DNA from: Halorubrum ezzemoulense DSM 17463
Lineage (GTDB): Archaea > Halobacteriota > Halobacteria > Halobacteriales > Haloferacaceae
Direction: 5' to 3'
Assembly: GCF_002114285.1 (NCBI RefSeq)
Contig: NZ_NEDJ01000025.1
Coordinates: 1-41,045, forward strand
DNA length: 41,045 nucleotides
Every line of letters begins with the position of its first letter. Positions within the stretch are counted from its first letter, which is position 1. The translations under genes and the position numbers were made by a program. Under the pieces are notes generated by a model. It had not been told where the DNA came from. It saw nothing but the letters and a program-made list of their open reading frames with translations, and did no database searches. Positions 4,094 through 30,666 of this stretch are shown piece by piece.

Positions 4094-5770
4094 TCACTGC
4101 GATCCGACCGACCGCCGGAGCGCGCGCTGTGCGCGGTACAGCGTGTACGCAACGGAGACCCCGACGAAGACTACCGCCGCACCGACGGCAGCGAGCACCG
4201 GACCGGACGCCGGCTCCTTCAGGTCGTCGCCCGTGCCGCAGTTTCCGCAGCCGTCGTCGCCGCAGTTCCCACACCCCGGCGCGTCCGTCGAGTCGTCGTC
4301 CGCCGAGTCGCCCGTCGATCCGCCCCGGTCGGCCGCGGTGGCCTCGTCTGCGTCGGGGGTGGCACTCGTCTCGTCCGGTTCGCGAGAGGCGCCGTCCGGC
4401 CGCGTCTCGCTCGGCGTTTCGTCCGGGCCGTCGTCCGTGGCGACCGGCCCGGCGGTCACTTCGACCGAGTCCGTGGCCTCGCCACCCGAGTCGTCGGGCT
4501 CGTCGAACAGGTGCGGCGCGTGCGAGCGGAGCGCCTCCAGCCCAGCCTCGATCTCTTCGCGGTCCTGGTGGCCCACCGCGAACTCGGACAGCTCGTCGAC
4601 CATCTCGCGGGCGCGCTCGGATCGGTCGTTCTCGACGTAACTCCGGGCGGCGTCGAACATTGCCCGGCCGAGCCAGTGTGCGAACACCGGGTTCTCGTAC
4701 CGGTCTTCGAGCGCTTCGAGGCGTTCGAGCTTCGTCTCGCCCGCGTCGATGTCGCCGTCGAAGAACGACGCCCGCGCGGAGAAGAACGCCGCCACCGCCG
4801 CCCACGTCGCACTCGACGGCGTCGAGAGTCGCTCGTGGTGCGCGGCCGTCTCGCTCGCCCAGTGTTCGACCCGACTGATGTCGGCCGCCTCGAAGCCGGC
4901 GCGCGCGGCGTTCGCCGTCGCGACCGGGAGCCAGCGGGTGATCGACTCCTCCCGGGCCGGGTACCGGTCGGCGAGCGCTTCGATCCGACCGATCCGGGCC
5001 TCGATCGCTTCGACGTCCGTCCGCTTGGCGTCGGCGTTCGTTCGGCCGGCGAGGACGCCGGCCAGGCCGGCGGCGACGTCGCCGTCCGGGTGGGTTCGAA
5101 ACAGCTCCTCCGCGCGGGCGACGCGGTCACCTTCGACCGCCGAATCGGGATGGTCGTCGCCCGTGTCGGCGCCGGCGTTGCGGCCCAGCGGCACGTCAGC
5201 GGTCTCCTCGCTCTCGGGTTCCTCGCCGAGGTACAGTTCCGCGTGAGCGTACGCCCGCAACAGCGCGGCCGCGACGTCCGGCTCGGGATGCGCGTCGTAC
5301 AGCGTTTCGAGACGGTCAACCAGGGGTTCGATCCGATCGCGGCGATCCCCCTTCCCGTTCGCGTGGATCGTCTCGGCGGTCGCCCGAGCCAGCGGCGCCG
5401 CGATCGCCGGCTCGGGGCGGCGGTCGTACAGCGTTTGGATTCGGTCTCGGTACGCCTCGATGCGGCCGGGGTCGATCGCGGTCTCGTAGAGGTCGTCACG
5501 GTCACGCACGCTCGTCGCGTTCGCGAGGGCGTTCGCGAGGTGGACCGCCGTGTCGTTGGCTCCGCCGTGGCCGCGGAGCCGGTCCAGCCGCGCGATCGTC
5601 TCGGCCTCAGCGTCGAACGCTCCGCGTTCGCCGTAGGCGTCGGCGAGCGCGACGAGGGCGTCGGTCAATCGCGCGTGATCGTCCGGGCTCCTCTCGGCCG
5701 GTTCCGTCGCGGCGATCGCCTCGACGCGTCGCTCTAGCTCGTCGACAGACCGTGTGTCGCTGGCTACCAT
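4094..5770 (-). CDS. Helical-repeat protein with two CxxC knuckles and a C-terminal membrane anchor
   Basis: A 558-residue protein I do not recognise by name. Residues about 1-400 are Ala/Glu/Arg-rich and regularly helical, with repeated blocks such as RIEPLVDRLETLYDAHPEPD, suggesting degenerate TPR/SEL1-like repeats. An acidic low-complexity linker (about 400-500) leads to CGNCGDDGCGNCG (about 500-513), which has four Cys in a CxxC-x4-CxxC layout able to bind zinc or an Fe-S cluster. A single hydrophobic helix (about 523-545) and a basic tail end the protein, so the large domain should face the cytoplasm as in tail-anchored proteins. The ATG at 5770 is the first start. It stands alone. A scaffold or quality-control role is only a guess. 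Confidence 0.8.
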   Translation of the reverse strand: MVASDTRSVDELERRVEAIAATEPAERSPDDHARLTDALVALADAYGERGAFDAEAETIARLDRLRGHGGANDTAVHLANALANATSVRDRDDLYETAIDPGRIEAYRDRIQTLYDRRPEPAIAAPLARATAETIHANGKGDRRDRIEPLVDRLETLYDAHPEPDVAAALLRAYAHAELYLGEEPESEETADVPLGRNAGADTGDDHPDSAVEGDRVARAEELFRTHPDGDVAAGLAGVLAGRTNADAKRTDVEAIEARIGRIEALADRYPAREESITRWLPVATANAARAGFEAADISRVEHWASETAAHHERLSTPSSATWAAVAAFFSARASFFDGDIDAGETKLERLEALEDRYENPVFAHWLGRAMFDAARSYVENDRSERAREMVDELSEFAVGHQDREEIEAGLEALRSHAPHLFDEPDDSGGEATDSVEVTAGPVATDDGPDETPSETRPDGASREPDETSATPDADEATAADRGGSTGDSADDDSTDAPGCGNCGDDGCGNCGTGDDLKEPASGPVLAAVGAAVVFVGVSVAYTLYRAQRALRRSVGSQ

Positions 5771-5886: not shown

Positions 5887-6705
5887 TCAGGCACTAGCGC
5901 TGGCTGCGTCGGCGCTCCGCTTGAGCCTGATAATGAGACTAATCAGGAAGGTCCCTATCATCACCAAGAGCACGTTGACGGCCCCTCGGATTGCCGGCGC
6001 CGGGAGCGAAGTGGCGGTGGCGCCCTGTATAACGCTCACCGTCCCCACACAGATCAGCACGGCGATCACGTAGGTGACGGTGGCATCGAGGACGGTCCCG
6101 TGCGTCAGCCGACGCGCCCGAATCGCCTGTCCGAACGAGACCCCGTAAACGGTGAACGCACCGGACGCGGTCGCGACGATCACCTCCGCGACCACCGTCG
6201 GCCCGAGCCAGACAACGAGCGGGAACTGGATTAAGGCGAGCAGCATGAATCCAGTCTCGATCCGTCGGGCCGTCGACAGCGAGATCCGGGTTCCCTCGGT
6301 CGATGTCGCGGGCTGAGCGTAGTACAGTTCTCGGAGTGACAAGGCGAGGAAGACGGCAAAGAACAACTGTGAAAGGAGTCTGAACGCGACGAGAACCGTT
6401 CCAACTGCCGGGCGAGTCGTCTCGGCCAGCAACAGCGCCGAGAACACCCCTCCGACGGCCGTCGACAACGCGACGTACCGCCACACGAGCGTGTCATGCG
6501 GTTCGTGTCGCGCTGTTACCAGCGCGTACCGCGCCGTTCCGAGGCACGCGGCCAGCACGAGGACGAGGGCGACGAACCGAGTGACGCCGACCCCGAGTAC
6601 CGGTGACGAGGTACTAACGACCGCTGGTCCCGGCTCTAACGCGCTCGACCCGAGAGTCGCCGTCATCAGTTCGTTCCCGCCACGTTCGACGACGCGGTCA
6701 CGCAT
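5887..6705 (-). CDS. Seven-helix membrane protein of unknown function
   Basis: 272 residues with about seven hydrophobic helices spread over residues 30-262 and a short charged tail. The ATG at 6705 lies six bases after the pseudokinase stop at 6712, so the two genes form an operon; an in-frame ATG at residue 14 is an alternative start. The layout resembles haloarchaeal seven-helix sensors of HalX/Bat neighbourhoods, but no retinal-binding Lys pattern or catalytic motif is seen. It is probably a partner of the upstream pseudokinase. The IS insertion in that gene may cut transcription of this one. Confidence 0.75.
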   Translation of the reverse strand: MRDRVVERGGNELMTATLGSSALEPGPAVVSTSSPVLGVGVTRFVALVLVLAACLGTARYALVTARHEPHDTLVWRYVALSTAVGGVFSALLLAETTRPAVGTVLVAFRLLSQLFFAVFLALSLRELYYAQPATSTEGTRISLSTARRIETGFMLLALIQFPLVVWLGPTVVAEVIVATASGAFTVYGVSFGQAIRARRLTHGTVLDATVTYVIAVLICVGTVSVIQGATATSLPAPAIRGAVNVLLVMIGTFLISLIIRLKRSADAASASA

Positions 6706-6977
6706 TGCTGGTCACGATAACAAGTCTCGTTTGAACGCTGCCACAGAGGCGTATCGCTCCATCTTCGCTGTTCTCAGCGACTTCAGCAGGACTGTGGACA
6801 GTCCTTCGGGGATACCGGTCACGACGTCTCGCGTGTGAACGGTCCCGTCGTCGCGGGTCGGCGCGGCGCCCGTCAGTAGCTCGTGCCCGATCATACCGAG
6901 CCCGTAGATGTCGGTCGCAGTGTCGACCCCGCCGAATCGGTCGGGAGCGACGTGTTCCGGTGCCGCGTACGAGTCGG

Positions 6978-6985
6978 GTATCTCG
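6978..6985. repeat. Target-site duplication, left copy (GTATCTCG)
   Basis: This 8-bp sequence directly abuts the left inverted repeat of the IS and is repeated exactly at 7915-7922 on the other side. Eight-base duplications are typical of ISH1-type IS5 elements. The perfect match suggests a recent insertion. Confidence 0.93.
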
Positions 6986-7914
6986 TGCTGTGTTGAATAG
7001 ATGCTGAGTCACGGTTAAAGCGGCTCACACAGTGGTTCTATGTTGGTGATGGCGAACATCAAGACGATTTCACGGAACTGCCGATACCAGCCCAGCGCTC
7101 GCACGGCGTCGCCGAGCGAGCGCTTCGTTGTCGAATACGATGTTTCGGCCATCCACCGCTGAGAGTAGCCCTTCGCTCGGTTGAGTGCGTTATTCGCAGC
7201 TGCGTTCGCTGACGAGCCGCGGTAATGAACGAGGTACTTAACGTCATATGCGGCGATTTCGTACTCGGTATGCCAGTCTTGGAAGCCGTTGTCGGCGGCG
7301 ACGGACTGCAGGTCGTCCGCGTTTCGGCGGACGACCTGCGGTCCAGTCTTCGTATCATGCTTCCACCGAGCTGCGATGTGAAGATCAAGAACAGCCAGCG
7401 ATTCCACATCTGTCAATGTCGTCACTTTCAGCGTCTGTATCGTTCGTCCTGCCCGCTGGCGAAAGTACGATGACGCACGTCGGCGATCGAAGAACGTGCT
7501 GTCGAGAGCGGCGTGGCCAGACTGCGGGTGCTGCTGCGCGGAAACGCGCAGCAGCGCCCGCCATACCCACATTTTCAGCCGATCAAACGACTTGTAGATC
7601 GTCGTGTGATCAGGGAGGTCGTCCCGAGCTAAGTCGAGAGCGTCACGAACTTCGTCCATGTACTTCAGCCCATTCGGTGTTTCACGGTAGCTGTGGGTCT
7701 CTTCGACCCGAAAACAGTGGAGAACGACATGAACCCAGCGGGCGAACCCGCCGCTGGCGGGCTCGCCCGCATGCTTCCCCAACGCTTGTTTAGCTAGGTG
7801 ACGACACTGCTCGATGAAGTCGAGGATATCGATCTCCATGTCAGGTTCGATTTCCTCGGCTTCACCCTTCTAAACCCGTGATATCGGCTGATAAGATCGC
7901 TCTTCAACAGAGCA
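6986..7914 (-). mobile_element. Complete IS5-family (ISH1-group-like) insertion sequence, 929 bp
   Basis: The ends are inverted repeats: TGCTGTGTTGAA at 6986-6997 and, on the other strand, TGCTCTGTTGAA at 7914-7903 (11 of 12 match). The element holds one transposase gene and is flanked by an exact 8-bp duplication. It sits in the same orientation as the pseudokinase gene that it disrupts. Both ends, the duplication and an intact DDE transposase make it look functional. Confidence 0.93.
7015..7839 (-). CDS. IS5-family DDE transposase
   Basis: 274 residues, full length for the ISH1-type group. The catalytic triad is Asp113 (ALDSTFF), Asp183 (AADNGF) and Glu232, the last in the IS5 signature R228-x3-E232-x6-K239 (RWMAETSYSTTK). 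The protein binds the 12-bp inverted repeats and catalyses cut-and-paste movement. The ATG at 7839 lies 75 bases inside the right end, and the stop is 29 bases from the left end. No frameshift is needed, so the element is probably autonomous. Confidence 0.95.
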   Translation of the reverse strand: MEIDILDFIEQCRHLAKQALGKHAGEPASGGFARWVHVVLHCFRVEETHSYRETPNGLKYMDEVRDALDLARDDLPDHTTIYKSFDRLKMWVWRALLRVSAQQHPQSGHAALDSTFFDRRRASSYFRQRAGRTIQTLKVTTLTDVESLAVLDLHIAARWKHDTKTGPQVVRRNADDLQSVAADNGFQDWHTEYEIAAYDVKYLVHYRGSSANAAANNALNRAKGYSQRWMAETSYSTTKRSLGDAVRALGWYRQFREIVLMFAITNIEPLCEPL

Positions 7915-7922
7915 GTATCTCG
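7915..7922. repeat. Target-site duplication, right copy (GTATCTCG)
   Basis: Exact second copy of the 8-bp sequence at 6978-6985, immediately outside the right inverted repeat. Deleting one copy plus the IS restores the reading frame of the pseudokinase gene. Confidence 0.93.
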
Positions 7923-9106
7923 GAGAACGTAGTCTCCGGCCCGAACACTTCCCGCAGTCCCCAGTCGCTGACCCGCGGAAAGGCCCACGCGTCAGGGTCT
8001 TCGACGGCGTTGACCGCAGTAATCACGCCCGGCCACATCGCACCGTGAAGCACGCCCGCAGCGTGTGCGTACTGAACCGCGTCGGCGATCTGTAACAGAA
8101 TCCACCTGGCTTCAGCCGGTGAGACCGGCGTCTCTCTCTCGGTGAGGAGCCCCAGTGCGCCCCGCTCAGAGACGAGCCACGGTACGGGGCGCGTTCCGGC
8201 GTCGACGACGCGTGCGACAGCGTCATGATCGTCGATCCGACGCCACCGCTCGATCGCGTCCCGAAAGGCGTCGTCATGCATACCGCTGGCGATCACACCC
8301 CGGCGGCACGTCGCTGTGAATTCGCGCCCGCTCGTCGCGAATTGGATGCGCTCGGCGTCTGAATCGCCGGCTGCTTCAGCAGCCTCTCTTGACCTGTGTT
8401 CGGTCAGCGATCGGTCGAGTCGGGGTGGCTTCGCAGGGGGCTCGTTTGGGGGATGTCCGGGCGTCGGCGACGCGTCCTCGCCGTCCGCGGAGCCGGTCGA
8501 CTCCTCCCGGCCCGCCGCGACGGCGGGTTCGGTCGGTGAGATCGCTTCGTCCCCTTCGTCCGCGATCACTGACCCGCCGGATTCGAACTCGGGGGGTTGA
8601 TAGCCGGCGACAGTCCGGATGGCAAGTGACTCGTCAATCAACCCGGCTTCGACCGCCCCGTCGATGATCTCGGCGACCGCCTCCTGGTTGTGGTCATCGA
8701 GCACCGCGAGAGTTCGAAGCGCGACCGACCGGGCCGCTGGATCGCGAAGCGCTCGTCGGAACCGTCCGGCACAGGCGTTGACGAGTTCGGGCGTCTCCGC
8801 GGACACGAATCGAAGTGCCCACGACGCGGCTCGTTGAACTTCCTCGTCGTCGTGCTCGAGCTGCGCCACGACCCGCGCGGTCCGCGCGGCGTCGAACGAT
8901 TCGGGATCTGTGAGCGCCGCCTCGAGCAGCTCGTTCGGGTCCGGCGTCAAGTCCGTTCGGTCCATGATGATACTCTACCCAACAGCACGTCGTCACGTGG
9001 TCTGCTCAACCTGAGAGAGTCACGCTAATAAATCACGCTACATCACCCACGGTCCGCTCGATCTCCACCAAACGACTTCGGGGGTCGAAGACCAAGGTGT
9101 ACCGAG

Positions 9107-9964
9107 ATGAGTGTTCCGCCCGCTACTGTCGAACGAACCTCCGGCGACCCGTTGATCGTACACGTCAGTGATATCCACGGCTACCTCACGGACGCTCGAA
9201 GCGCGCTGCTCGCCGTCGGTGACTCCGGGCAGTATCCGGACCTCGTACGGGCCGATGAGTCTGACCGGCTCCACTGGGCGGACAACGATTACGTACTCGT
9301 GGTCAACGGCGACGTGATCGACCGGGGGCCGGCGAACGAGGAGTGTCTCGAGATGGTCTGGCGACTCCAAGAGGAAGCCCCGCCCGGGCGGGTCCGATAC
9401 CAGTTAGGGAATCACGAGTTGGCTATTCTGCTCCCGTCGTTCGTCCGGTGGCCGGGTGCGTATTCCACCGGCCTCGACGCGGCGGACCGGCGCGAGTTTC
9501 TCCGGCGAGCCAGCGAGGGGGCTGTCACGGCCGCCTTCGAGGGATATCAGTATCGCTACAGTCACGCCGGACAGAACGAGCCGTTCGACGTGACGAGGGT
9601 AAACGACGTAGTCCGGAACGCCGCGAGCGAGCTGTTGGCCGTCGACGGCGACGACAGAACGGTACAGAAGCGGCTCGAACGACGACACGGCCGCGTGTTC
9701 GCCCTCGGCAGCGACGGCGGCCGCGGCCCCGATGCCGGGCTCTGCTGGCTGGACTTCACGCACCTGGACCCGTCGGCCCCAGCACAGATCGTCGGCCACA
9801 CGAAGCGAGTTGACCCCGTTCGGAACGGCAACGTGGTCTGCGGGAACATCATCCGGATGAACCACCGCTCGGCAGGGGGCGAGGGCGTCCTGATCGAGAG
9901 CGCTGATTCGCTGGAGGTCGTCCGCCGAAAACCCGACGGGTCCGTCTCCGTCTCATCGGTCTGA
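9107..9964 (+). CDS. PPP-type serine/threonine phosphatase (metallophosphoesterase)
   Basis: 285 residues with the full set of two-metal phosphoesterase motifs in PPP order: D22-I-H24-G, GDVIDRG (68-74), GNHE (101-104), YSHAG (about 155) and IVGHTKRV (about 234). The D-x-x-D-R-G form is typical of PPP protein phosphatases and bacterial relatives such as PrpA or ApaH, so either phosphoprotein or dinucleotide substrates are possible. It is cytoplasmic. It is divergent from the IS-disrupted pseudokinase gene (ATGs 142 bases apart), which suggests a kinase-like/phosphatase pair acting on common targets. That link is inference from position. Confidence 0.9.
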   Translation: MSVPPATVERTSGDPLIVHVSDIHGYLTDARSALLAVGDSGQYPDLVRADESDRLHWADNDYVLVVNGDVIDRGPANEECLEMVWRLQEEAPPGRVRYQLGNHELAILLPSFVRWPGAYSTGLDAADRREFLRRASEGAVTAAFEGYQYRYSHAGQNEPFDVTRVNDVVRNAASELLAVDGDDRTVQKRLERRHGRVFALGSDGGRGPDAGLCWLDFTHLDPSAPAQIVGHTKRVDPVRNGNVVCGNIIRMNHRSAGGEGVLIESADSLEVVRRKPDGSVSVSSV

Positions 9965-13649: not shown

Positions 13650-14891
13650 CTACTCGACGTGCTCTTGGAACAGGGACTCGGGGTCGGCCTCCATTTCTGC
13701 CTCGACGTCAGCGGACAGTTCGCCGACCGAGAGTTCGTCGAGCGCCTCCTTGAGCTCCTCGGCCCGTGGGAGGGCGAGTATTTTGCAACTCACGGCGTCC
13801 CCAGCCGTTTTAATGAGGGTGTCGAACCCGAACACGTACTCCTGTGTCGTCGCGAGATCCAGCATTATCGGATCGACGATAGCCGACGCGAAGTCGTGGA
13901 CGAACTCCGGAGGGGTATGCTGGTTCGACGTGCCGAGCACGTTCGCCCACCCGTCGACGAATCCGCTGATCATGATATTGCTGATCTCTTCGATCGCGCT
14001 CTCGTGAATTCCGTCGAATCCGTCGGTGACCGCTCCGGTACCCATCGCCTCTGCGATTGTTTCGGCGGAGGGCTCGTCGAACAGGACAAGGACGTAGCCG
14101 GTGGGGAGGCCGGTTAGCTTCGCAACGACGCCCACCTGCTGCTCGTCACCGAGTCGCGGTCCGATCTGTTCGACCTGAAGGAAGCTCATGCGGCTGACCG
14201 TGACCGACGTGTCGATCCCGGTCATCATCGTTATGCTGTCGCCTGCGGTGTCGCCGCCCTTCGCGGCCATTCGGCTGAACACCTGGAGCTTGTCCAGCGG
14301 TATCGGCGTCGACTCGCTGGTGAGCCGGGTATCGAGAATATGCCTGAACGACGCCTCCTCGAGGAATACGTACGCCGTCGTTTCGACGACTGCGCTCGAC
14401 GTTTCGAACGTAGTGTTCACCGTCAGCACCTGATTCGACGCCTGATCGATCGGCGTCGCGTCCGGGATGATGTCCGTCCCGCCTCCCGTCAGGTACGTCG
14501 GTGGGCGCTGATCGATAGCCTGGTTCAGATAGTCCGCCCACCCGTCGATGAACCCGCTAAGCATGATGTTTCCGAGTTCCGTGAGCCGCGATTCGAGACC
14601 GATCGCCTCGGCGCCGTCACCGGGAAGGCTCTTCGCGAGCGTCCTCGCGCCCGCCTCGTTGAAGACGAGCAGTGCTGTCCCAGCGATACCCCCGGAGAAT
14701 TCGCTCGAAATGCCGATGAGATCCTGATTGTGAAGGTCAGCGATGATATCTCGACGCCGGAGGAGATCGATGCTCGTCGCTTCGACCGTCGGCCGGACAC
14801 CGGTCAACTGTCCGAGTGAGTTCGCGGCCTGTTTCGACCCGTCATGAGCGAGGCGATTAAACTCTCCGAGGGCGTTAACCTCAATCTTCAT
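13650..14891 (-). CDS. cheC: Two-domain CheC-type chemotaxis phosphatase
   Basis: 413 residues from the ATG at 14891; the frame extends seven codons further to 14912, but an AT-rich TATA element at about 14918-14926 fits the internal ATG as a leaderless start. Two CheC units follow each other. The first has Glu105-x2-Asn108 (LTELGNIMLSGF) and the second Glu302-x2-Asn305 (IEEISNIMISGF). This E-x2-N motif is the catalytic pair with which CheC dephosphorylates CheY-P. A single CheC domain is about 200 residues, so this is a tandem fusion with both sites kept. No other che or archaellum genes are in the window. It may act on CheY or another receiver protein. Confidence 0.9.
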   Translation of the reverse strand: MKIEVNALGEFNRLAHDGSKQAANSLGQLTGVRPTVEATSIDLLRRRDIIADLHNQDLIGISSEFSGGIAGTALLVFNEAGARTLAKSLPGDGAEAIGLESRLTELGNIMLSGFIDGWADYLNQAIDQRPPTYLTGGGTDIIPDATPIDQASNQVLTVNTTFETSSAVVETTAYVFLEEASFRHILDTRLTSESTPIPLDKLQVFSRMAAKGGDTAGDSITMMTGIDTSVTVSRMSFLQVEQIGPRLGDEQQVGVVAKLTGLPTGYVLVLFDEPSAETIAEAMGTGAVTDGFDGIHESAIEEISNIMISGFVDGWANVLGTSNQHTPPEFVHDFASAIVDPIMLDLATTQEYVFGFDTLIKTAGDAVSCKILALPRAEELKEALDELSVGELSADVEAEMEADPESLFQEHVE

Positions 14892-15124
14892 ATATGGTAT
14901 GTTAATTGACAAGGCAGCATTTTAACACTTACCCCGGCGTTCCGCACCGCGGAAGCGAACCCTGAGAGCTCCTCGAACGGTGACGCGTTATACGGGCGCC
15001 GAGTGAAGGCAGCATCGGCAACCGCAGCATCGATGAACGCGAAGCGGCCACCCTCGGCAGTTCGTTCGGAGTGACGCGTCGTCCGCTGCGGAGATTCACT
15101 GTGCGTCGGAGAATCCGTAGGCTT

Positions 15125-15540: not shown

Positions 15541-16449
15541 ATGGACGTTGATCGGGCCCGCGGTGTCCTCTGTGGGATCGCCTGTGGAGACGCGCTCGGT
15601 CGGCCGGTCGAGTTCATGTCCGCGTCCGGGATCCGTACCGGTCACGGGCGACTCGACGAGATGGTCGGCCACGGAACGTGGAACCAGCCCGCCGGGACGA
15701 TCACGGACGACACCGAGCAGGCGCTGTGTATCGCGCGGAGCCTCGTCGAGCGGGGAGAGTTCGATCCGGCGGACATCGCGGAGCGGTTCGTCGCGTGGTA
15801 CGACAGCGACCCGTTCGACATCGGCCGGATGACGATGAAGTCGTTGAGCCGACTCAAGCACGGCGGCGAGTGGGACGAGGCGGGCCGGCACGTCTGGGAA
15901 CACAGCCCGGAGGGGCAGAACGCCGGGAACGGGAGCGTGATGCGGTGCGCGCCGCTCGCAGTTCCGTACGCGGCGGACCGAGAGCGACTCGTCGAGGTGA
16001 GCCGGGATTCGTCGCGGATCACGCACGCCGATCCGCGGTGTACGTACGGGTGCGGGATCCTGAACCTCACGGTGGCTGGGCTCCTCGACGACGCGGACGC
16101 GCCGTTACGGGATGCGCTCGACTACGTGGGTACGGACGCACCCGCTGAACTCGTCACGGCGCTTCGGCCGCTCGCTCGGGGAGACTCGCTCGACGACCTG
16201 GAGACGTCGGGCTACGTCGTTCATTCGCTACGGACGGCGCTCCACGACGGGTTGTCCGCCGAGAGCGCCGAGGAGGCAATCGTGACCGCGGTCAATCGCG
16301 GCGGAGACGCCGATACGATCGGGGCGATCGCGGGTGCGGTCGCGGGTGCGCGGTTCGGCGCATCGACGCTTCCCGATCGGTGGCTCGACGCCGTCGGCGA
16401 GGCTGACGAACTCGAACGGATAGCGGACCGGCTCGTGGAGACGGCGTAA
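15541..16449 (+). CDS. ADP-ribosylglycohydrolase (DraG/ARH family)
   Basis: 302 residues spanning the whole family. Metal-binding motifs are present: GDALGRPVEF (about 16-25), ITDDTEQA (about 54-61), NGSVMRCAPL (about 124-133) and NRGGDADTIGAIAG near residue 255. The two-magnesium centre removes ADP-ribose from protein side chains or related substrates, in the cytoplasm. The ATG at 15541 has a TATA-like stretch 24-31 bases upstream, consistent with a leaderless mRNA. No ADP-ribosyltransferase or toxin is adjacent, so its substrate cannot be inferred from context. Confidence 0.95.
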   Translation: MDVDRARGVLCGIACGDALGRPVEFMSASGIRTGHGRLDEMVGHGTWNQPAGTITDDTEQALCIARSLVERGEFDPADIAERFVAWYDSDPFDIGRMTMKSLSRLKHGGEWDEAGRHVWEHSPEGQNAGNGSVMRCAPLAVPYAADRERLVEVSRDSSRITHADPRCTYGCGILNLTVAGLLDDADAPLRDALDYVGTDAPAELVTALRPLARGDSLDDLETSGYVVHSLRTALHDGLSAESAEEAIVTAVNRGGDADTIGAIAGAVAGARFGASTLPDRWLDAVGEADELERIADRLVETA

Positions 16450-23407: not shown

Positions 23408-24580
23408 TCAGAACAGCGACTCCAGCTCCCCGTCGCTATCCATCAGCTCGGTGAAGCGGTCCTCGCTCTCGTCGGTGATCTCGCCCAGATTCTGTTGCGC
23501 CTCGACCGCGACCTGCTGAAGCTCCTTCACTCGCGGGACGTTCGTCACGCCGCCGAGCAGGACGAGCCCCGCGACGGTTCCCTCGCCGCGTCGCGGGTAG
23601 TCGCCGCCGCGGACCTCCATCGACCCGGTCTGTTCCTCGAGCCACTTGCGACCGTGCTCGATGCCCTTCCGGTTGAGATACTCCGGCGGCCCGGCGACGA
23701 CGAGCAGCGCCCGCTCCGTCCCGCTCACCTCACACGGCAGAGTGAGCCGACCGAGCGTCGCCTTCCGGACGAGGCTCGTGATCCGATTGGTGGCCTCCGT
23801 GCTGTCGATCCCCTCGTTCGAATCGTTGCCGAACCGCGAGAGCAACCCCGACCGCTTCGGTTCGTCGACCTCGACGTCGGCGTACCCCAGCGACGAGATG
23901 CCGCCGCCCTTGAGCGTGTTGATGATCTCGGAGGAGTCGACCACGCTCTCGGCGACGTCGCTCCCCTCGGTGATTTCGCCGGCGCTGAAGAGCACGCCGA
24001 ACCGCTGGACCAACTCCCTGTTGATCGCGTCGAACCCTTCTCCGACGGACTCGCCCGAACTGCGCCACGCGTCGTTGTCGAACAGCATGAGGTTGTCCAC
24101 CTCGTCGACGAACGTCTTGAGCGAGCGGGCGGCGTTCAGCGTGTAGATCCCGCCCTCGTCGCTGCCGGGGAGGATGCCGAGCCCGTAGACGGGTTCGGTG
24201 TAGATCCGTTTGAGGTTCTTCGCGATCACGGGTGCGCCACCCGATCCCGTCCCGCCGCCCAGCCCCGCAACGACGAGGAACGCGTCGATCTCGTGGACCG
24301 GCACCGAGTCGAGCGCCCCCTGGATCTCGTCGATGTCCTCCTCGGCCACTTCCGCGCCCAGTTCGTTGTCCGCGCCCACCCCGTGGCCCTTGACCCGCGA
24401 TTGCCCGATCAGGATCCGGCGGTCCTCCGGAAGGCGGTCGATCCCGTTGAGGTCCGCCTTCGCCGTGTTGACGGCGATCGCTCCCCGAACGATGTCTGCG
24501 CCCGTCTGTGCGTCGTAGGCCAGGAACTCGTCGACTACCTTCCCACCTGCCTGTCCGACCCCGATCAATGCGAGTTTCAC
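23408..24580 (-). CDS. cetZ: CetZ, archaeal tubulin/FtsZ-family cytoskeletal GTPase
   Basis: 390 residues from the GTG at 24580, which yields the family's canonical start VKLALIGVGQAGGKVVDEF; an ATG at 24595, five codons upstream, sits 24 bases after a TTTATC box and is an equally possible leaderless start. The tubulin signature GLGGGTGSGGAP, the T-loops around DNDAW and the conserved RVKGHGVGADNELGAE block mark CetZ rather than FtsZ. The tail ends in the CetZ motif ELESLF. CetZ polymers control cell shape and motility beneath the haloarchaeal membrane. It follows a three-gene operon at 106 bases and is divergent from an actin homologue 1.4 kb away. The paralogue number (CetZ1, CetZ2) cannot be set without a tree. 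Confidence 0.95.
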   Translation of the reverse strand: MKLALIGVGQAGGKVVDEFLAYDAQTGADIVRGAIAVNTAKADLNGIDRLPEDRRILIGQSRVKGHGVGADNELGAEVAEEDIDEIQGALDSVPVHEIDAFLVVAGLGGGTGSGGAPVIAKNLKRIYTEPVYGLGILPGSDEGGIYTLNAARSLKTFVDEVDNLMLFDNDAWRSSGESVGEGFDAINRELVQRFGVLFSAGEITEGSDVAESVVDSSEIINTLKGGGISSLGYADVEVDEPKRSGLLSRFGNDSNEGIDSTEATNRITSLVRKATLGRLTLPCEVSGTERALLVVAGPPEYLNRKGIEHGRKWLEEQTGSMEVRGGDYPRRGEGTVAGLVLLGGVTNVPRVKELQQVAVEAQQNLGEITDESEDRFTELMDSDGELESLF

Positions 24581-24701
24581 GTGAACACACCGCATGTATC
24601 TACGCGGGTCGGACTGATAAAGGTTAGAAGCCGCCTCAGCGTAGCGTGAACGACTGCTTCCCCGGTACAGGAAGCCGCGGTGTTCACAGGCGGGAGTGGC
24701 G

Positions 24702-25052
24702 TCACGAGTCGTCGTCCGCGGACGCGTCGGAGTCGCGCCGTTCGGTCGACGGATCGGCACCGACGCTCGGACCGTCGGCAGGAGTCGCCCCGGTGTCGTC
24801 GTCGCCGCCTTCGTTACGAGCCTGCTTGAGTGCGTCGACGGCGCTGTCCGTCGATTCGACCCGGGTTTCGGTCACGCCGCTCGGATCGAGTTTCGGCTCC
24901 GCTGCGGCCTCGGTGCCAGTTTCGTCGGCGGCCGAGCCGTCGGTCTCGTCGGCGGCCGGGGTATCGACCTCGGCGTTCGCGTGTGGGTCCCCGTCTCCGT
25001 CGGCGTCGCCGCCGAGGCCGAGCCACGATCTGAGTGTGTCAAGAAGTCCCAT
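24702..25052 (-). CDS. Small acidic disordered protein with amphipathic N-terminus
   Basis: 116 residues, strongly acidic and rich in Ala, Asp, Glu and Thr, with no predicted fold apart from an N-terminal amphipathic or hydrophobic stretch (MGLLDTLRSWLGLGG) that could touch a membrane or a partner, and a short helix around DSAVDALKQARNEGG. The ATG at 25052 is two bases after the stop of the preceding gene, so the two are one operon. It is the last gene before cetZ. An N-terminal membrane-targeting helix with a disordered tail would suit a cytoskeletal adaptor, but this is a guess. Confidence 0.75.
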   Translation of the reverse strand: MGLLDTLRSWLGLGGDADGDGDPHANAEVDTPAADETDGSAADETGTEAAAEPKLDPSGVTETRVESTDSAVDALKQARNEGGDDDTGATPADGPSVGADPSTERRDSDASADDDS

Positions 25053-28077: not shown

Positions 28078-28158
28078 CGCGTGTCCGAGAGCGCGCAGAC
28101 TGGAGTCCGCGCGTACTGACGGCTTCGCCGTCGTGTACTGCTCACGCTCGGATACGTG
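28078..28158 (+). other. Strongly folding multibranch element between actin and acylase genes
   Basis: Three nested helices account for most of the 81 bases. An outer 12-bp stem joins 78-89 to 147-158 (numbers plus 28000; two G-U pairs). Inside, hairpin 1 pairs 91-95 with 108-112 and 98-100 with 105-107 (loop TGGA). Hairpin 2 pairs 114-116 with 135-137 and 118-123 with 127-132 (loop TTC). No tRNA T-loop or anticodon arm is seen. It could be a small RNA, a 3'-end structure, or a small palindromic mobile element; nothing in the sequence decides. Confidence 0.5.
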
Positions 28159-28177
28159 AACCTCCCCGATCCGATCC

Positions 28178-28188
28178 AAATTATAATG
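28178..28188 (+). promoter_or_regulatory. TATA box of the acylase gene
   Basis: AAATTATAATG is the only AT-rich stretch here, centred 27-30 bases before the GTG at 28213. It overlaps the ATG at 28186, so that ATG would not be in the mRNA. This favours GTG 28213 as a leaderless start. Confidence 0.6.
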
Positions 28189-28212
28189 AGGAATCGGGTC
28201 ATCGGTCGTGAG

Positions 28213-30666
28213 GTGACACGCGACACCACGCGCCGCGCGGTCCTCGCGAGCGTCCTCGCGGCCGGCAGCGCCGGACTGGCGGCGAGCGACGCGGCCGACC
28301 TCCTCGACTCGTTCGCCCCGCTGTCGGGCGAGGCGTGGGACGCCGCCGACCGGTCCCTCCCGGAGACCGTCGAGAGCCCGCACGGGGCGGCGACGGTCGC
28401 CCGCGACGAGTTCGGCGTCCCGCAGATCGAGGCGGACGAGGAGCCCGCGGCGTACTTCGCGGTCGGCTACTGTCAGGCGTTCGACCGGCTGTTCGCGATG
28501 GATCTCCAGCGGCGGGTGATGCGCGGCCGGCTCTCGGAGGTGATCGGGGAGGCGACGCTCGACAGCGACGAGTTCAACGTCGCGATGGGGTTCGCCGACG
28601 CCGCCGCGGCCACGTGGGACGCGGTCGCCGAGACGCGCGCCGGGCCCCTCGTCGAGGCGTTCGCAGACGGCGTCAACGCCGCGATTGAGGACCTACCGCT
28701 CCCGCTGGAGTTCGAGCTGATCGGCTACGAGCCCGAGCCGTGGACCCCCGTCGACTCGATGCTGATGGAAAAGCAGATCTCGTGGACGCTCACGGGGAGC
28801 TTCGCCGAACTACGGCGCGCGCTCGTCGCCGACCGCCTCGGATCCGAGCGCGCCGAGACGCTGTTTCCGACGCGGTACGACCACGACGACCCGATCCTCG
28901 ACGGGACCGAGACGCGGCTCTCCGAGGGGACGGGCGCCGAGAGCCTTCGCGGGGCGGGTGAGCGCGCGCCGAACCTAGAGGCGACCTCGAACGTTGGGGG
29001 CGGCGCCGACCCCGTCGACCCCGAACTGACCGACTGGCTCTCCGGCTTCGAGTCGCCGACGGGGGTCGGCTCGAACAGCTGGGTCGTCTCCGGAGAGCAC
29101 GCCGCGAGCGGGAGCCCGATCGTCGCGTACGACCCGCACCTCTCGCTTCAGGCGCCCCCGCTGTGGTACGAGCAGTCGGTCGACACCCCCGAGCGGTCGG
29201 TGCGGGGCGCGACGTTCTCGGGCGTCCCGTTCGTCATCGCGGGCGCGAACGACCGCGGCACGTGGTCGTTCACCAACCTCGGCGCCGACGTGCTGGACTG
29301 CTACCGGTACGATATCGACGAGGCGGGCGACCGCTACGAGTACGACGGGGAGTGGCGCCCCTTCGAAGTCGACGAGCGCGAGACGATCCCGGTCGCCGGG
29401 GGCGAGGACCGGGAGGTCCGGGTGCGCCGAACCGTCCACGGCCCCCTGATCGAACGCGAGGATCAGACGGTCGGCGTCGCGTGGACCGGCCACACCGCGA
29501 CGCGCACCACCGTCGCCATCGAGGCGTACGGACGCAGCGAGGGGATCGACGACCTGCTCGACGCGACGCGCAACTTCGATCTCCCCACGCAGAACCTCGT
29601 GTACGCCGACGCCGACGGCCGCACGCTCTACTTCGCGACCGGGAAACTCCCGATCCGCCGCACCGACGGCGAGGTCGTCGACGGCGACCGGGTGTTCGAC
29701 GGCTCCGCCGGCGAGGGGGAGTGGGCGGGGTTCGAGCCGTTCGGTGAGTCGTCGTGGGAGGGGTTCGTCCCCTTCGCGGAGAAGCCGCACGCGATCGACC
29801 CCGACGCGCTGTCGACCGCCAACCAGCGCCCGATCGACGACCCGATCCACTACGTCGGCGTCGACTACGCGACCCCGTACCGCGGCGCCCGGATCGCCGA
29901 CCGTCTCGAGGGGACGATCGACGGGGGGGAGGGGTCGACCGACCCCGACTTCCACCGCGCCCTCCAGAACGACGTGCGCGACGGGCGCAGCCCGGAACTC
30001 GTCCCCGAACTGGTCGCCGCGGTCCGCGACCGCGACGACCCCGATCCGCCGCTCGTCGACGCCGCGGACGCCCTCGACGAGTGGAACTACCGAATGCGAC
30101 GGGACTCCCGGGCCGCGCTGCTGTTCGCCCGGTACCTGCCGAAGTTCCGCGAGCGCATCTTCGAGCCCGCCTTCTCCGACGGCGGCCTCGGCGAGTCCTA
30201 CTACCCGAGCGACTGGACGCTCGCGCGGCTCCCCGACGACGACCCACTGTTCGAGGGGGGCTCGCGCGGCGACCTCGCGGCCGCGGCCCTCCGCGACGCG
30301 CTCGACGAGATCGGCGAGGAGGGTTGGGAGACGTACGGCGACTACAACACCACGCGGGCGATGACCCACCCCCTCGGCGGCGAGGCGGCGTTCTTGAACT
30401 ACGACGAACTGTCCGCTGACGGCTCGCCCGCGACGGTGAAGAACTACCGCGTCGAGTCCGCGGTCGGGTCGAGCTGGCGGATGGTGGTGCGCCCGGGGAC
30501 CGACGCGACCGCGGTCCTCCCGGGCGGGAACTCCGGGGACTACTTCTCGGAACACTACGACGACCAGCTCCGGCGCTGGCTGGGTAACGACCAGCGCCCG
30601 ATGCCGCTCGGCGCGGGCGGCGAACCGGCGGTTCGGTTCGAGCCCCCGACGGAGGGGTCGCAGTGA
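28213..30666 (+). CDS. Penicillin acylase family Ntn-hydrolase, Tat-exported
   Basis: 817 residues from the GTG at 28213, chosen because the TATA box at 28178-28188 overlaps the upstream ATGs (28156 GTG frame start, 28186 ATG). The N-terminus then reads MTRDTTRRAVLASVLAAGSA, a twin-arginine signal. The family's alpha chain, spacer and beta chain are all present; the nucleophile is Ser287 in VGSNSWVVSG, where self-cleavage frees the serine as N-terminus, and AYDPHLSL follows as expected. Such enzymes hydrolyse amide bonds of penicillins, acyl-homoserine lactones or other acylated amines outside the cell. The natural substrate is unknown. A small membrane protein gene overlaps its end. Confidence 0.93.
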   Translation: MTRDTTRRAVLASVLAAGSAGLAASDAADLLDSFAPLSGEAWDAADRSLPETVESPHGAATVARDEFGVPQIEADEEPAAYFAVGYCQAFDRLFAMDLQRRVMRGRLSEVIGEATLDSDEFNVAMGFADAAAATWDAVAETRAGPLVEAFADGVNAAIEDLPLPLEFELIGYEPEPWTPVDSMLMEKQISWTLTGSFAELRRALVADRLGSERAETLFPTRYDHDDPILDGTETRLSEGTGAESLRGAGERAPNLEATSNVGGGADPVDPELTDWLSGFESPTGVGSNSWVVSGEHAASGSPIVAYDPHLSLQAPPLWYEQSVDTPERSVRGATFSGVPFVIAGANDRGTWSFTNLGADVLDCYRYDIDEAGDRYEYDGEWRPFEVDERETIPVAGGEDREVRVRRTVHGPLIEREDQTVGVAWTGHTATRTTVAIEAYGRSEGIDDLLDATRNFDLPTQNLVYADADGRTLYFATGKLPIRRTDGEVVDGDRVFDGSAGEGEWAGFEPFGESSWEGFVPFAEKPHAIDPDALSTANQRPIDDPIHYVGVDYATPYRGARIADRLEGTIDGGEGSTDPDFHRALQNDVRDGRSPELVPELVAAVRDRDDPDPPLVDAADALDEWNYRMRRDSRAALLFARYLPKFRERIFEPAFSDGGLGESYYPSDWTLARLPDDDPLFEGGSRGDLAAAALRDALDEIGEEGWETYGDYNTTRAMTHPLGGEAAFLNYDELSADGSPATVKNYRVESAVGSSWRMVVRPGTDATAVLPGGNSGDYFSEHYDDQLRRWLGNDQRPMPLGAGGEPAVRFEPPTEGSQ

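Follow-up and report, generated by a model that had tools for sequence, protein, structure and literature searches.

Taken together, our results point to a conserved haloarchaeal two-gene module, formed by a soluble HEAT-solenoid pseudokinase and a seven-transmembrane (seven-TM) protein, that would function without catalysis and that is disrupted in Halorubrum ezzemoulense DSM 17463. We give this reading a probability of about two in three. The DNA analysed here (the window, 41,045 nucleotides) is a complete contig from a draft genome of 3.6 Mb. In it, the pseudokinase gene lies on the reverse strand in two parts: the N part (7916-8965, 350 aa) encodes a HEAT-like solenoid, a Pro-rich linker, the kinase N-lobe, the catalytic loop (HGAMWPGV) and DWG, and the C part (6712-6975, 87 aa) encodes the end of the activation segment (AAPE) and the C-lobe. 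Six nucleotides further on, as read from the sequence, follows the gene of its conserved partner, the seven-TM protein (5887-6705, reverse strand, 272 aa). On the other side, divergent from the kinase gene and separated from it by 141 bp, is a PPP-type phosphatase gene (9107-9964, forward strand), a neighbour in this genome that stands outside the conserved module.

The element that interrupts the pseudokinase gene spans 6986-7914 (929 bp) and ends in imperfect 15-nt terminal inverted repeats (6986-7000 and 7900-7914, 87% complementary). It encodes an intact transposase of 274 aa (7015-7839, reverse strand) whose score for the NCBIfam IS5 model NF033579, 151.8 bits, exceeds the cut-off of 140, and it is bordered on both sides by the exact 8-bp repeat GTATCTCG (6978-6985 and 7915-7922, 937 bp from start to start). 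An IS5-type DDE transposase, terminal inverted repeats and an exact 8-bp duplication are all present, in agreement with the earlier note, which had described an IS5-family insertion at this site; the insertion is young. We found no second full-length copy of the element in the same genome. Matches at E <= 1e-50 occur in 24 of 52 Halorubrum genomes, this one included, the closest match outside it among these 52 genomes having 95% identity, and matches in plasmids amount to 96 records, one of which is annotated as ISHla3.

With the frame interrupted directly ahead of the AAPE segment, the N product lacks most of the C-lobe. The seven-TM gene itself is intact, but the element lies between it and most of the pseudokinase sequence upstream. 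Given this position of the insertion, the pseudokinase/seven-TM module is probably disabled or altered in this strain.

The single frame of 438 aa with HEAT-like repeats that the earlier note had proposed held up as regards the frame. Its length is a matter of frame arithmetic on flanks that were left unjoined (350 aa, 87 aa and one codon split at the junction), and its continuous form is known from intact relatives. In one of these (L031), the N and C parts map to one continuous reading frame, separated by just one codon, and the family profile matches the window in two pieces, covering profile positions 2-353 and 355-458. The open frame of the N part enters the insertion element by three codons, which extends it to 353 aa. 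As for the HEAT-like repeats, the signal is weak in the window copy (Arm 0.0055 and HEAT_EZ 0.044, both under cut-off) but clear in some relatives (best value 2.7e-12; HEAT_2 in 6/27). In line with the prediction that other strains carry the intact gene, it is uninterrupted in related species: 14 further genomes have it whole, 7 from Halorubrum and 7 from elsewhere in the family.

Matches to the N part were found in 23 of 170 family genomes, 15 of them being full-length orthologues (own genome included) and 8 other kinases. To the 14 intact family orthologues we added 15 sequences from other families of the order, giving 29 relatives. The window copy has Ala at the position of the HRD Asp, and this Asp is kept in none of the 29 relatives, in line with the claim that the kinase fold had lost its catalytic Asp and extending it to the whole family. 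The HRD His is kept in 29/29 and the APE Glu in 28/28 rows with letters at that position, the catalytic-loop Asn is missing in 25/29, and the DFG-position Asp is kept in 15/28. The beta-3 Lys, read by eye from the alignment, is kept in 8/29 and missing in 21/29, including all 7 Halorubrum orthologues. The DWG found at the DFG position of the window copy is common, too, among haloarchaeal kinases with a complete catalytic apparatus; among the other haloarchaeal kinases, 20 of 21 rows have an Asp-bearing loop, and the one row that lacks it is a fragment, the Asp being present on the second piece of that kinase. Pfam Pkinase matches 27/27 intact relatives (E up to 0.01), and in the AF2 model of the L031 orthologue (pLDDT 81.4) eight N-terminal helices are followed by a linker and an intact kinase fold. 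On sequence grounds, the gene is a pseudokinase with a predicted kinase fold and with loss of the catalytic Asp as a family trait. We also noticed, in the otherwise disordered linker before the kinase domain of L031 (residues ~170-190), a conserved Pro-rich stretch, PPxxPPxxPP, with pLDDT ~86-91.

A tree of 28 of the 29 pseudokinases (the truncated L091 was dropped) and 17 of the 21 paralogue rows (without L190, two pieces of L155 and one L045 row that was a duplicate) separates pseudokinases from catalytically complete haloarchaeal paralogues with 100/100 support and one change per label. As its root was placed for drawing only, a single loss of the catalytic Asp is likely on the sequences at hand, and not proven. 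Close kinase pairs within clades have dN/dS values of 0.14-0.40, which indicates purifying selection; values between distant clades (up to ~0.97) are unreliable owing to G+C saturation at third positions.

The second member of the module is mostly encoded next to the first. The seven predicted TM helices confirm the seven-helix protein that had been reported downstream of the kinase, and linkage of the two genes is conserved in 14/14 intact family orthologue loci, where the seven-TM gene starts 4-14 nt before the kinase stop (the start being the first start codon counted from 30 nt before that stop). The remaining stretch of the set (L045) carries canonical kinases, and we did not find a seven-TM homologue in it. 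Across the order, 99 of 392 genomes have the seven-TM family. Of 20 more distant loci, 15 carry the pseudokinase gene immediately upstream in the same orientation, in one case as a fragment at a contig end; gaps of 35-542 nt separate the two genes in 4 of 14 distant pairs. In a further locus (L091), the two genes are 3.4 kb apart in opposite orientation. Seven-TM relatives without a pseudokinase beside them were seen in the other 4 of these 20 loci (L103, L105, L106 and L107). In the phylum sample, matches to the seven-TM protein occur in 17 of 294 genomes, all from the same order.

In the kinase tree as in the seven-TM tree, two pairs from family f4 (L089 and L090, the former apparently from Natronomonas aquatica) cluster with family f1 and apart from the remaining f4 members, with support of 82/91 at the kinase fork and 100/99 at the TM split. 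This shared placement suggests joint transfer, and the kinase and seven-TM genes have apparently moved together between families, as judged from the two trees.

Neighbour clusters of the pair loci held no third gene conserved across all lineages. Clusters c2, c3, c4 and similar ones overlap the coordinates of the pair, mostly on the other strand, and were read as antisense frames, and the recurring acyl-CoA dehydrogenase, MCP, RGP-like and SBP-like neighbours look like lineage synteny. A large protein (cluster c6) lies near the pair in six loci (L098, L099, L101, L102, L104 and L038); its L104 member, the one copy scanned, is a HAMP-MCP chemotaxis transducer divergent from the kinase. In the window, a 558-aa protein (4094-5770, reverse strand) that has a stretch rich in Cys and Gly and, as its only domain signal, a TPR hint below threshold is encoded downstream of the seven-TM gene, and no homologue of it was found in the 15 orthologue stretches. 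Elsewhere the window encodes a CheC-like protein (13650-14912), an ADP-ribosylglycohydrolase (15541-16449), a CetZ tubulin-like protein (23408-24760) and a penicillin amidase (28156-30666).

The AF2 model of the seven-TM protein (pLDDT 84.3, pTM 0.79) has seven long helices, and the segments placed in the cytoplasm by the predicted N-out/C-in topology (positive-inside rule) carry the positive charge. Named matches at 69-79% identity are all from Halorubrum, and for the window copy no Pfam family exceeds its cut-off. With the model as query, neither the Foldseek search of solved structures nor the viral-structure search returned a match at E <= 0.001. PADLOC gave nothing for the membrane protein or the phosphatase; for the kinase parts its only matches were generic models that include a kinase (such as PD-T4-6 and MkoA), which we read as the shared kinase domain, and a defence system was rejected.

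The earlier note had paired the pseudokinase with the adjacent phosphatase as a regulatory complex and had expected kinase, phosphatase and seven-helix protein to form a conserved trio. The phosphatase was correctly assigned to the PPP type: it carries DIHG, GDVIDRG, GNHE, HAG and GH, which we take to be the PPP motifs including the metal ligands, and it matches Pfam Metallophos (1e-10), with NCBIfam ApaH-type models matching only below cut-off. The divergent arrangement at a short distance and the kept motifs would suit a pseudokinase acting as regulatory subunit of this enzyme, and so would a raw co-occurrence of the two genes in 7 of 170 family genomes, which is above chance (p 0.005, with shared descent uncorrected). 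However, the phosphatase is found in none of the 14 intact orthologue loci that keep the pair, and none of 20 fetched phosphatase loci has a pseudokinase or seven-TM protein within 6.5 kb. Absence of linkage is what the earlier note had itself named as speaking against its proposal. Beyond the own genome, moreover, the co-occurrence comes from six genomes of two clades, in which the two genes are on different contigs or separated by hundreds of kb (the second phosphatase copy that one of the six genomes carries is likewise remote), and among 52 Halorubrum genomes the pseudokinase is present in 8, the phosphatase in 6 and both only in the own genome (1/8, p 0.65). We consider the regulatory-subunit reading largely refuted by this lack of linkage and very improbable. 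The phosphatase, patchily distributed (29/170 family genomes and 18/243 order genomes, own included in both), appears to be an unrelated chance neighbour. One phosphatase locus has a canonical kinase in two pieces ~5 kb away, and in another genome (G018, L045) the phosphatase lies near canonical kinases. In two Halorubrum genomes (L150:7658-11962 and L155), its neighbours are an IetA-like AAA protein, which in L150 gave a PADLOC match at 1e-33, and two further shared genes, perhaps in a defence island; the phosphatase gene at L155:7714-8662 (G110) is split into two overlapping frames.

Two other explanations concern what the module's own proteins do. The pseudokinase might keep an unusual catalytic or nucleotide-gated activity, as an ATP-binding switch or as a transferase of the non-phosphorylating kind known for some pseudokinases. 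Its predicted fold is intact, and retention of the beta-3 Lys and of the DFG-position Asp in part of the relatives means that nucleotide binding may persist in some members, four of which (L043, L044, L089 and L090) keep both residues. Against such activity stand the family-wide loss of the catalytic Asp, the frequent loss of the loop Asn and the missing beta-3 Lys in most members, so that we regard it as decidedly unlikely. The alternative of a transport or enzymatic function for the seven-TM protein, with the pseudokinase serving only as its assembly factor or membrane anchor, fits the tight gene coupling and the fact that no ligand-binding domain was seen; weak matches to Mntp (0.0088) and Cation_efflux (0.01) point the same way. 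Yet each of these matches concerns 1 of 30 members, and the predicted bundle is nearer to 7TM receptors, though a fold shows no function. We hold this explanation to be doubtful.

We favour the non-catalytic two-gene module, and the pair looks like an undescribed membrane signalling unit. Its two proteins are encoded by overlapping or abutting genes, and the seven-TM protein, oriented N-out and C-in, would most likely serve as a membrane-bound sensor or effector. The pseudokinase may dock on the positively charged cytoplasmic loops of the seven-TM protein and act as a non-catalytic switch or scaffold, its HEAT domain possibly offering a binding surface that recruits another protein. What the sequences show is the family-wide loss of the catalytic Asp, a predicted intact kinase fold, purifying selection, and conservation and co-inheritance of the gene pair; that the two proteins bind each other, take part in sensing and pass on a signal is what we infer. 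A more specific form of the model, in which a GPCR-like seven-TM receptor and a dedicated cytoplasmic HEAT-pseudokinase work together as receptor and adaptor, in a two-gene system distinct from two-component and Hanks-kinase signalling, seems to us rather unlikely.

Eukaryotic pseudokinases have been studied in depth, and cataloguing of the bacterial ones is under way. Present across several haloarchaeal families and apparently transferred as a unit, the pair may offer a compact test system for a kinase fold without catalysis, and it would add to archaeal membrane biology a seven-TM family without a Pfam name. At this locus, attention shifts from the phosphatase to the membrane protein. Among the open papers searched, we did not find one on an archaeal pseudokinase family, most subscription papers lying outside this coverage. 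A count of five STYKs in Halobacterium salinarum includes one without the catalytic Asp (PMC1262709, Table 1, in the accessible part of that paper, which gives the count alone); it is possibly an earlier sighting of this family.

Several known systems share single traits with the pair. The membrane protein resembles HisKA_7TM (11 matches in the own genome) in its seven-TM, sensor-like topology, but a comparison with a profile built from 7 of these 11 matches gave an hhalign probability of 0.1%, and we rejected this identity. Its model, predicted N-out/C-in, also has some likeness to the GPCR/rhodopsin bundle: the top VIA-align rows are mostly GPCR 7TM chains (Z up to 17.1, 217 aligned residues, 4.2 A, the reference quoted for helical models being a best of about 14). 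In contrast, Foldseek gave no match at the above threshold and no GPCR is among the sequence-profile matches to the PDB, and we take the modelled likeness as a hint of a similar 7TM bundle that implies neither homology nor function.

On the kinase side, the predicted fold matches M. tuberculosis PknB (6i2p; Foldseek E 1.3e-11, profile E 6.9e-42), but PknB has HRDVKPAN where the pseudokinases have HGGLDPGAV-like loops, and the modelled pseudokinase shows no apparent transmembrane helix. The catalytically complete haloarchaeal Ser/Thr kinases (L016-L030 and L045) are the nearest paralogues found and share DWG for DFG; unlike the pseudokinases, they keep HLDLKPxN-type loops and fall on the other side of the tree split. 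Finally, actinobacterial MviN/ActPs3 pseudokinases are described as scaffolds that recruit FhaA in the accessible part of PMC12599244, which covers bacterial pseudokinases and mentions archaea once, in the title of a reference. Compared by that description, the two systems differ in that the actinobacterial pseudokinase domain lies within the membrane protein, whereas the linked loci studied here have separate genes and an N-terminal HEAT domain. What they have in common, according to the same partial source, is a pseudokinase with degraded catalytic motifs that works with a polytopic membrane protein.
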